NCBI RefSeq assembly: GCF_004353525.1
Contig: NZ_CP085524.1
Coordinates: 1,398,142 to 1,462,141, forward strand
DNA: 64,000 nt
Reading direction: 5' to 3'
Origin: Zhaonella formicivorans
GTDB lineage: Bacteria > Bacillota > DUOV01 > Zhaonellaceae
The notes under the pieces were generated by a model. It was given only the letters and a program-made list of their open reading frames with translations. It ran no database searches and was not told the DNA's origin. Position numbers and translations under genes: made by a program. Shown here piece after piece: positions 34,177 to 63,915 of the stretch (the first letter of the stretch is position 1; every line of letters starts with the position of its first letter).

Positions 34177-34319
34177 AAAAAAGCCAGGCGGGTAGAAAGA
34201 GCCTGGCTTTTAAATAACACAAGGAACCCCTTTCCACATTGGGAGGCATAGCAGTTTCCCGCTATACCCTATGGACTTTACTCCATGGCCGAAGCTTTAG
34301 GCGGTAAAGTTCGGAGCAT
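34177..34319 (-). ncRNA. Moco (molybdenum/tungsten cofactor) riboswitch with terminator
   Basis: The minus-strand leader of tupA has the blocks I associate with the Moco RNA: GCTCCGAAC, CGGCCATGGAGTAAAG, a GNRA-capped P3-like stem (TAGCGG-GAAA-CTGCTA) and GCCTCCCAA followed by GGAAAGG. CTCC pairs with GGAG and CTTT with AAAG. A strong terminator follows (34177-34210: AAAGCCAGGC / GCCTGGCTTTTTT), fitting ligand-controlled termination. The P3-like stem favours Moco over the tungsten variant. Identification is from memory of the consensus. Confidence 0.7.
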
Positions 34320-34429
34320 AAAAATAAAATATGGAGTTGTTACATAAAATTTATTCTACGTACAAAAACTGATACCTGCTGTTCTTAAAAATTATTCGGC
34401 TAGGGCAGAATACATATTTCAACAAAAAA

Positions 34430-45102: not shown

Positions 45103-45135
45103 AAAAATAATCCTCCCCTCTGCAACAAGGGGAGG
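45103..45135 (-). terminator. Terminator after the zinc-ribbon/HTH gene
   Basis: Stem CCTCCCCT / AGGGGAGG followed on the minus strand by a T-rich stretch, seven bases past the stop codon. Confidence 0.85.
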
Positions 45136-45141
45136 TGGCTG

Positions 45142-45759
45142 TTAAATATTATTTTCCATCAAAAATCTTTCCAATTCAGTTTTAGCCACAATATATGACC
45201 TGCCGGGTTTTTTGGCGGACAACTTACCTTTATGGATCAGATTCAATACTTTTTGATAAGCATTTTTTGTAGTGAAGCCCAGCAGTTCTGCAGCCCTTAC
45301 GGTAGACAAATACTCTTCGTCATCAAGCGCCGCCATGTTCACCGGATGGGTATTTTGCCCAGTGTATTCCACAGGCAGGAGTCCTGCCTGCTTTAGTTCT
45401 CTGACCAAACCGAGTATAGTATCTACCTTGGCGTTGATGGTGGTTTGATTTTCCGCTATTTCCCGCAAAACTTCTTTCAACTGCTCTAAACTCTCCGTTT
45501 GTTTTTCCGGCTCTTGTGGTCTGCCTTCTTGCCGTCTCCGGGCTGCCCTGTTTGCCTCATTGTAAATAGCGGCTGTTTTCCTGCTGCTGCCCCCAGTCAC
45601 CACCCCCACCGGCTCCCAGGGATCAAAGATAACCTGGGTATAGCCACATTTGGCACAAGAAAAATAAGCGTTATTAAAACTGCGGAAGCGGTAAATGAGG
45701 TAATCGCCTTTACAGGAAGGGCAATTGCCGTAAAACTTCTTTTTCTTGACGGGAAACAT
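45142..45759 (-). CDS. Zinc-ribbon, coiled-coil and HTH protein under c-di-GMP riboswitch
   Basis: A 205-residue protein in three parts. An N-terminal zinc ribbon (GNCPSCKGDYL with SCAKCGYTQ, residues ~12-40) is followed by a basic patch and a coiled coil (~75-115). The C-terminal winged HTH of the excisionase/MerR-like type (~145-200, LSTVRAAELLGFTTKNAYQKVLNLIHKGKLSAKKPGRSYIV) probably binds DNA. No named family is recognised. Start ATG follows AAAGGAG, which abuts a cyclic-di-GMP-I riboswitch, so its translation is probably controlled by that messenger. It may link c-di-GMP to transcription; this is inference. Confidence 0.75.
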   Translation of the reverse strand: MFPVKKKKFYGNCPSCKGDYLIYRFRSFNNAYFSCAKCGYTQVIFDPWEPVGVVTGGSSRKTAAIYNEANRAARRRQEGRPQEPEKQTESLEQLKEVLREIAENQTTINAKVDTILGLVRELKQAGLLPVEYTGQNTHPVNMAALDDEEYLSTVRAAELLGFTTKNAYQKVLNLIHKGKLSAKKPGRSYIVAKTELERFLMENNI

Positions 45760-45773
45760 CGTAATTCTCCTTT

Positions 45774-45850
45774 CGGCAGCTGGCTGCCATAGCTTTCAGC
45801 TTTAGGCCCTATAGCTTTGCGTCACCGGCTTTAGCCGGTTTTGCCTTTTC
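45774..45850 (-). ncRNA. Cyclic-di-GMP-I riboswitch (GEMM-I)
   Basis: The minus strand reads GGCAAAACCGGC-TAAA-GCCGGTGACGCAAAGC (two blocks), then GGGCCTAAAGC-TGAAAGCTATGGCAGCC. These are the hallmark blocks of the GEMM-I aptamer: P2 hairpin, conserved GACGCAAAGC, GGGCCUAA and AUGGCAGCC. The closing P1 strand (TGCC) lies directly before the AAAGGAG ribosome site of the downstream gene, pointing to translational control; no terminator lies between. Confidence 0.92.
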
Positions 45851-45926
45851 GTTGGTTACTATTTTACTTTGCTATTTTTGCAATAAATCCTCCTTTGCAG
45901 GCTTAACTTAGTTAAAATTTTTATTT

Positions 45927-46388
45927 TTATAAAAGCTCACAGCTATGTTCCGCTGTATTTTTACCCTCCTGTACTTGCTCATGACAATTGGCCAACAATT
46001 GGGCACAATACTCAATTATTTCGCTCCTGCGCACAATCCCGATAAAGATCCCCATATCATCCTCAACAGGTACAAAATTTTGTACCTTAGCCAAGCTAAT
46101 TAGATCCAGCATTTCCGCATCAATCCGTACCGGTTTGTTTTCCATCCGGCGCGGCACTTCTTCTAAAGTGTATTTGTGAGCATTTTCAAAGCTCAGACCA
46201 GGTGTATTTTTTATCTTCCACAGCAGATCCCCTTCGGTTAGGGTCCCCACGTACCTGCCCTCCCGGTCGATAATGGGAACTGCTGTATAGCGGTGCCGCT
46301 CCATTCTTTCTAAAGCTTGCCTAATAGTTGATTGGGGCGTCAAATAAACTACTTCGTCTTTGGGCAAAAGAAAAAAGGCGATGTTCAT
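45927..46388 (-). CDS. CBS-domain protein
   Basis: A 153-residue protein made of two CBS motifs: LTPQSTIRQALERMERHRYTAVPIIDREGRYVGTLTEGDLL and a second starting MENKPVRIDAEMLDLISLAKVQNFVPVEDD. Such pairs bind adenine nucleotides. A short Cys-containing tail (AEHSCELL) follows. Start ATG follows GGGAGGG. There is no effector domain, and the partner is unknown. Confidence 0.88.
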   Translation of the reverse strand: MNIAFFLLPKDEVVYLTPQSTIRQALERMERHRYTAVPIIDREGRYVGTLTEGDLLWKIKNTPGLSFENAHKYTLEEVPRRMENKPVRIDAEMLDLISLAKVQNFVPVEDDMGIFIGIVRRSEIIEYCAQLLANCHEQVQEGKNTAEHSCELL

Positions 46389-62199: not shown

Positions 62200-63915
62200 T
62201 CTGAAATATTCATAGCCATAATAGGCCATGGAAATTTTGTAACAAAATGGTGTTAAGATATATCTTGCTTTCTCATGTTGGCCCTGTAACCTGTTGTAAA
62301 AAACACGCACAAGGCATTGATATGGTATACGATGTAAGAGATGCATAAAACTGGATGATTTGAAGCTATAGCTGCCCCTTGTTCCTTAATTATGGCTTAA
62401 AAACTAGTTTTTTTAGTAATTTATTCATTTACTAAACAAGGCAAACTGCTTATATTTTGCAAGGTTTGTATAAATGAATTTTGGTATATATAAGAGCTGC
62501 ATAACTTCCAGGTCCAGTAGCGAGCGGAACGTACCAGTTTCCCTGCAATTTTGATTAATTTCAACCGCAGTGTCTCCATTCGGTTTGGTTTCATTGGTTC
62601 AGGCAAGCACAACCTACGAAACCAGTTGTTAAAGTTGTATGCCAACATGGATAACTGCAGTTTTACTGCATTGGATTCAAAGTTAGTGCTGCTAAGTTTG
62701 TGACAAGCGAATCCATTTTTGGCTTCCTTAATAAAGTTTTCCATATGTCCACGTTGACAGTAAAAACGAACGATATTACGCGGTTGTAGTTCCATGTTTG
62801 TCACGATAAACGTGAATTCAAAGAACAATTGTCCAGCAGGCCGTTCCATTTTGACAACAACGCGGCGGGCACGATCCCAACTAGTAGCTTGATACAGAAA
62901 TTCCCGGTAGTGGACTTGCCTTTCATGCAGTCTTTCAGGGTTTAATACTTGGTCCGCCATGGACTGTGCAACAGATTGAAGACGAGCATTGGCTTTTAAG
63001 CGAATTACATATTTATGACCCTTGGTTTCTACTAGTTTAAAGAGTTCTGGAACGGCAAAACCACTATCTGCGCGCAAAACAATTAAAGGATTGCTAACCC
63101 AAGCCTCATACCTTTTAAGGAGTGGACCGACAAATCGCACCACCTGACGAGAAGTATATACGTTGCCAGCACGAAGCTCGGCTTTAAGGCAATCACCTGT
63201 TAGTCCATCAAAACAAAATAGAGGGTGAAACCCCCACTCTTGATAATGAGAATTGAAGTTTGCTCCATATTGATTACCGTAAGCAGTAAAGCCGGAAGAA
63301 TCAAGATCCATAACAAACTGGTCTTGGGGTTTAAGCATATATACTCGCTTTTGTAAGATTTCATTAATATGTTCCAATGATTTTGCAGTTGCAATATTCG
63401 CTTTTTCATTGAACCGGGAGATTGTTGGCTGCGAGGCCAAGCGCTTTTTCCCAGTAAAGCGGTGAGTAGGGGTTCTTCGGCTAACTCATCCGCATGATCA
63501 TCAGCGTGATAACCAGCAAGATGCTGATAAAGCTTTTGGATAACCACATCACTATTAGGATGATCTCGGTGCATAACAGGGTCATCAACTACCAGCATTT
63601 TTTCAACAGTTTCTGAAAGGCCGAGTTTATAATCAAATTCCTTATACAATAACAACCCTGCATCTGAAGTTAGGTCGCCACCATTGAAATTAACTTTTAT
63701 TCGGGAGTTGAAGTTCATGCTATATTCCTGTACACTTTTCATAAGAAGAGTCCTCCTTTGGTAAAGGTTGGTTTGCCAACACCATTACAATACCAAAGTT
63801 TGGGCTCTTTTTCCATGCTTTCATTTCACTTAATGGGTGATATGCTAAAGGCTTATTAATTCTTATTGCACTAAGGTTTTAAAGCTCAACAGATTTTTTA
63901 TATGAATATTTCAGG
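62200..63915 (-). mobile_element. IS1380-family insertion sequence
   Basis: A 1716-bp element bounded by terminal inverted repeats (left TCTGAAATATTCATA, right complement CCTGAAATATTCATA, 14 of 15 bases), inside a 5-bp target duplication TTCAA/TTCAA. It carries one transposase gene in two frames. The 220 bases after the transposase hold only a T-rich region. Confidence 0.88.
62421..63742 (-). CDS. IS1380-family transposase in two overlapping frames
   Basis: A ~440-residue DDE transposase. Frame 1 (from 63742) runs MKSVQEYSMNFN to LLTALLGK. The family sequence continues KRLASQPTISRFNEK in frame -1, to the stop at 62421. DDE residues: D in FVMDLDSSGF, D in VLRADSGF and E in HMENFIKEAK. The switch occurs in the heptamer G GGA AAA (63446-63452), a canonical slip site, where a -1 shift gives exactly the expected GKKRLASQP. 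Either programmed frameshifting or a one-base loss in an A-tract; family members are usually in one frame, which favours mutation. Confidence 0.85.

Follow-up and report, generated by a model that had tools for sequence, protein, structure and literature searches.

The window, the 64,000-nucleotide stretch of DNA analysed here, contains a c-di-GMP-I (GEMM-I) riboswitch that is probably genuine and probably governs, at the level of translation, a 205-residue putative DNA-binding protein specific to this lineage. The computed basis of this reading is the full aptamer, the Shine-Dalgarno (SD) sequence at its 3' end, the open reading frame with its HTH_17 domain, the terminator (Table 1), and the absence of the whole unit from the corresponding place in G002, a genome from another genus of the family. 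Binding of c-di-GMP would alter ribosome access to the adjoining SD, and the 205-aa protein would bind DNA and pass the c-di-GMP signal on. The second-tier regulator of the initial annotation is plausible; if the protein does bind DNA, the switch would be another RNA sensor that feeds the transcription layer.

Table 1. Features of the unit in the window, and first genes behind c-di-GMP-I switches of the same genome (L001, L003-L005)
Feature	Position	Strand	Basis or content
c-di-GMP-I (GEMM-I) riboswitch aptamer	45772..45855	-	RF01051
Shine-Dalgarno AGGAG, directly 3' of aptamer	45767..45771	-	sequence; layout comparison
Possible anti-aptamer hairpin GGCAG-CCAG-CUGCC, re-uses aptamer 3' strand	45775..45788	-	thermodynamic prediction only
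Orphan 205-aa zinc-ribbon-like/helical/HTH_17 protein	45142..45759	-	ORF, ATG; Pfam
HTH_17 domain, residues 150-203	45151..45312	-	PF12728, 28.1 bits, cut-off 27
Zinc-ribbon-like four-cysteine segment, residues 13-38	45646..45723	-	CxxC-18-CxxC; sub-threshold Pfam; L001 paralogue
Intrinsic-terminator-like hairpin and T-run	45112..45135	-	9 pairs, 6 G-C; 6 nt past stop codon
L001			first gene: 60-aa zinc-ribbon protein
L003			first gene: window gene (205 aa)
L004			first gene: HD protein with C-terminal Spo0E-like domain
L005			first gene: HD protein

The initial annotation had called a GEMM-I switch and named an RF01051 scan as one check. The Rfam scan of the window bore this out with a match of 80.2 bits (gathering cut-off 35, E 3.6e-14) that covers model positions 1-87 of 87 and is thus full length. 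The ligand-selectivity position, which PMC9262584 gives as G20 of Vc2, is G in the window copy (AAGGCAAAA; position assigned from our own reading of the motif) and not A as in the G20A/cGAMP type. The base preceding CAAA is G in all seven aptamers of the genome, like in c-di-GMP-type switches, and seven GGDEF matches over cut-off provide a candidate source of the ligand. Judged from sequence, the identity of the c-di-GMP-I riboswitch and its placement on the 205-aa gene are solid. The further claim that P1 lies next to the ribosome site was loose, as the element adjoining the SD is the aptamer 3' end (CCGAA segment). The Rfam model RF01051 has no P1 pairing at the aptamer ends, and no good 5' partner for P1 was seen at the window aptamer. 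A terminator-like site on the + strand (45824-45839) was discarded as merely the complement of an aptamer hairpin. By eye, an AGGAGG resembling an SD was noted 5' of the aptamer, together with a short TTG frame.

The full-length aptamer at this score, together with the well-placed SD, makes it quite unlikely that the aptamer is a non-functional leftover and that transcription of the gene comes, regardless of c-di-GMP, by read-through from the upstream CBS-domain gene or another promoter. Such a leftover would be consistent with the finding of no sigma-70-like promoter on the - strand between the CBS gene and the aptamer, and some C. difficile class I switches are reported as non-functional (PMC6366702).

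The gene had been placed directly behind the switch, and this held: AGGAG begins at the base after the aptamer end and is followed 7 nt further by the ATG, which lies 12 nt past the aptamer. No terminator-like hairpin is listed between aptamer and gene on the - strand. The switch direction was addressed by three fold calculations. Free-state folds, in two fold calculations, predict the anti-aptamer hairpin, and the SD is predicted to be paired in both the free and the aptamer-forced states, with alternative folds existing. In an ON version, the bound aptamer would take up the 3' strand that otherwise can pair with the SD. The cost of opening the SD with the aptamer 3' strand removed versus present was 1.4 v. 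2.8 kcal/mol with 30 nt downstream and 1.1 v. 2.2 kcal/mol with 45 nt, and the 2.7 v. 2.5 kcal/mol obtained with 60 nt does not favour ON. We lean slightly towards ON over OFF. A tentative alternative, which differs in direction only, is translational OFF by direct occlusion, in that the bound aptamer, ending 3-4 nt before the SD, would block the 30S and the protein would be made at low c-di-GMP as a motile-state factor. The adjoining SD fits this mechanism, and PMC9262584 describes Vc2-tfoY as a translational OFF switch. However, the opening costs lean weakly to ON at two of the three lengths, and the L001 and L002 switches of the same genome overlap terminators in an ON-predicting way.

Known class I switches show both likenesses and differences. 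Vc2 controls tfoY in Vibrio cholerae, and PMC9262584 and PMC11218506 describe a class I aptamer placed directly on a small regulatory gene and acting at the translational level, as we propose here. In contrast to Vc2-tfoY, the SD adjoins the aptamer and no P1 is evident in the window switch, the host is presumably a Bacillota-type anaerobe, and the 205-aa protein has no demonstrated relation to TfoX. Cd1, Bc1 and Bc2 of C. difficile and B. thuringiensis belong to the same aptamer family, and Cd1 is likewise described without P1 (PMC9262584). The targets of these switches are flagellar, MCP or adhesin genes, controlled via terminators, whereas no terminator separates the window aptamer from its gene.

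For comparison of layouts and target genes, 126 aptamer loci of this phylum (7 own + 30 + 29 + 60) were surveyed, which are a subset, tilted to high scores, of the matches in 299 genomes; a first gene was picked by script in 123 of them. The start codon lies at most 20 nt from the aptamer in nine of the 123, and the SD-adjacent layout is uncommon, because only six remain after three doubtful ORFs (L013, L014, L100) are dropped. It recurs ahead of the L005 HD protein in the same genome, ahead of an HD gene from a different genus within the family (L116) and, in two Acidaminobacter, ahead of a transglutaminase-like gene. Read by eye, these two Acidaminobacter loci (L187, L190) show a c-di-GMP-I-GGC aptamer, an SD directly 3', a U-run and a GTG start. 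The window aptamer shares 83% identity with the L005 aptamer (mean against the 125 others 70%, sd 5; L144 84%, L131 82%), but the sequence is too constrained for this to prove copying.

The 205-aa protein carries two CxxC knuckles (C13-x2-C16-x18-C35-x2-C38), and zinc-ribbon families match at about residues 12-42 (16.8 bits at best, against 29 and 25.4). The zinc ribbon of the initial annotation is supported by the knuckles and by these matches, which lie below the Pfam cut-offs. The DNA-binding claim stood by a narrow margin, in that HTH_17 passes the gathering cut-off by 1.1 bits only. For the coiled coil, the sole support is a long predicted helix (residues 85-124) in a single-sequence structure model that is poor (mean pLDDT 58) and further contains a helix at 61-77 and three in the HTH region. 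Since HTH_17 is near its cut-off, the ribbon sub-threshold and the model poor, we refer to a putative DNA-binding protein. Its likeness to HTH_17/excisionase proteins (PF12728, TIGR01764) is in the C-terminal 50 residues. It differs from them by the extra zinc-ribbon-like N-terminus and the long helix, and it scores below the excisionase cut-off (NCBIfam TIGR01764, 26.9 bits v. 28.8).

A strong terminator comes after the gene, so that it appears to form a single unit with the aptamer and this terminator. Upstream lies the CBS-domain gene (Pfam), and downstream are genes that we take to be addB and addA from our own reading of the sequence. The CBS-domain protein (45927-46388, -) resembles CbpB, which binds c-di-AMP, at a score below the cut-off (60.7 bits v. 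125). Flagellar genes had been placed in the same window, and chemotaxis/flagellar genes (CheB, CheA, FapA) are indeed present at 2.4-9.5 kb; they are 36 kb or more away, a distance that gives no functional link to the 205-aa gene. The window further contains a molybdenum cofactor riboswitch (34211-34328, -; RF01055, 68.7 bits) and a transposase of DDE group 1 (62421-63440, -; PF13701).

Across 101 genomes, a full-length homologue of the 205-aa protein was found in its own genome only, with weak partial matches in two others. L010 and L012 were rejected as orthologues, being HTH proteins without a zinc ribbon, as was L009, a plainly different protein. A peptide scan of genome contigs confirmed none. 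A zinc-ribbon profile run against 398 genomes matched in 28 at E <= 0.01, own genome included. Ten of the 27 foreign loci were read by eye, and none held an orthologue; they encode known but unrelated ribbon proteins, among them AccD-like, radical SAM and ribosomal L24-like ones, or lack a ribbon protein. An RNA-family check of 20 of these 27 loci returned a single GEMM-I (L059), ~900 bp away on the opposite strand. When the pattern of aptamer end, SD and CPxC was searched in genome contigs, 15 stretches were obtained, and among the 14 scanned (L186, of 293 bases, was left out) two had an aptamer, both from Acidaminobacter and of family RF03167. No zinc ribbon lies behind either of them, the gene being the transglutaminase-like one.

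In G002, the CMD, CBS and addB genes have the same order; CBS and addB are adjacent there, ~80 bp apart, and an aptamer is absent. Rfam scans of 20 addB-region loci (1 own, 19 others) found an aptamer in our own only. G002 is the sole like-for-like comparison, because among the eight other loci with the flank read it alone has CBS as the addB neighbour. With so few relatives, the absence in G002 fits gain here and loss there alike. By these comparisons the unit appears lineage-specific.

Lineage specificity would also suit an excisionase-like or mobile-element protein that landed by chance behind a copied riboswitch and is no c-di-GMP output regulator. The HTH_17/excisionase-type fold, with its sub-threshold TIGR01764 score, and a match to the DNA-binding phrog_6401 (E 4.9e-5) point the same way, as does an 8-bp direct repeat, AATCCTCC, near both unit ends (window near 45111 and 45887). 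We nevertheless consider this origin unlikely. A rough estimate for the search that gave the repeat places it within chance. Next to the unit, where the neighbours are CBS, addB and CMD, no gene was identified as an integrase or phage gene, and searches of phages, plasmids and viral contigs gave no match to the protein. Moreover, a second zinc-ribbon unit of the genome has a switch too.

This second unit, L001, encodes a zinc-ribbon-only protein of 60 aa, also behind a c-di-GMP-I switch. When the genome was searched for relatives of the window protein, this protein was the sole one obtained (44% identity over 36 aa); it shares the two CxxC knuckles. By E-value ranking, its aptamer best fits the sister model RF03167. 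In the predicted fold of the leader, the 5' arm of a terminator is the aptamer 3' strand. L001 is therefore predicted to be a transcriptional ON switch, because the terminator overlaps the aptamer and ligand binding should permit transcription. Behind this gene, too, the sequence has a hairpin-like, GC-rich stretch and a T-run. Near the ATPase gene that precedes the L001 unit, a c-di-GMP aptamer was found in none of five other loci (L201-L205). One of these relatives has a c-di-AMP riboswitch near the ATPase gene (L204, 711-846, -; RF00379).

Switch and target may travel together as a unit, as is suggested by finding, in a single genome, a pair of related zinc-ribbon proteins each under a switch of its own. 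More speculatively, and in our view improbably, the two self-contained units of aptamer, zinc-ribbon gene and terminator, with their different platforms, might form a private two-member c-di-GMP circuit. The full DNA-binding version would be under translational control and the 60-aa ribbon-only version under an overlapping terminator, and the small protein could pair or compete with the large one. If true, this would be a c-di-GMP-gated regulator with its modulator.

Class I c-di-GMP switches are mostly found on motility, adhesion and signalling genes. The genome has seven such switches. Besides the loci in Table 1, the first genes are presumably a type II secretion F/PilC-like gene followed by a pilin-like gene (L002), an MCP-like protein (L006) and a secreted protein with a copper-amine-oxidase-N-like domain (L007), all read by eye. 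Among the 25 most frequent of the 87 Pfam families in the 123 first genes of the survey were HD (16), HAMP (12), Flp pilin (8), flagellar rod (8), MCP signal (5), Spo0E-like (3) and sigma-54 activators (2). Ten first-gene proteins, chosen by hand, were scanned more closely and yielded sigma-70 matches (L108, L147), HTH_16 (L133), sigma-54 activators (L141, L161) and a response-regulator receiver (L162). Because of the sigma-70, HTH_16 and sigma-54 activator matches, at least five of the 123 first genes besides the window gene, or six with L162, are likely transcription regulators. A regulator gene behind a class I switch is thus not unusual and of a kind already known, with Vc2-tfoY as its studied example. 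The sensor itself is ordinary; what is unusual is that the protein is an orphan and that a further zinc-ribbon gene of the genome is also preceded by such a switch. Within the set of papers searched, none combined 'c-di-GMP riboswitch' with 'zinc ribbon' or 'Spo0E', and a limited literature search found no c-di-GMP work in this lineage. The Spo0E-like domains in three of the 123 first genes hint that c-di-GMP may be connected to the sporulation phosphorelay. In the genome studied here, the L004 switch (G000:C1:1236973-1237058) lies ahead of such a fusion of HD and Spo0E-like domains.
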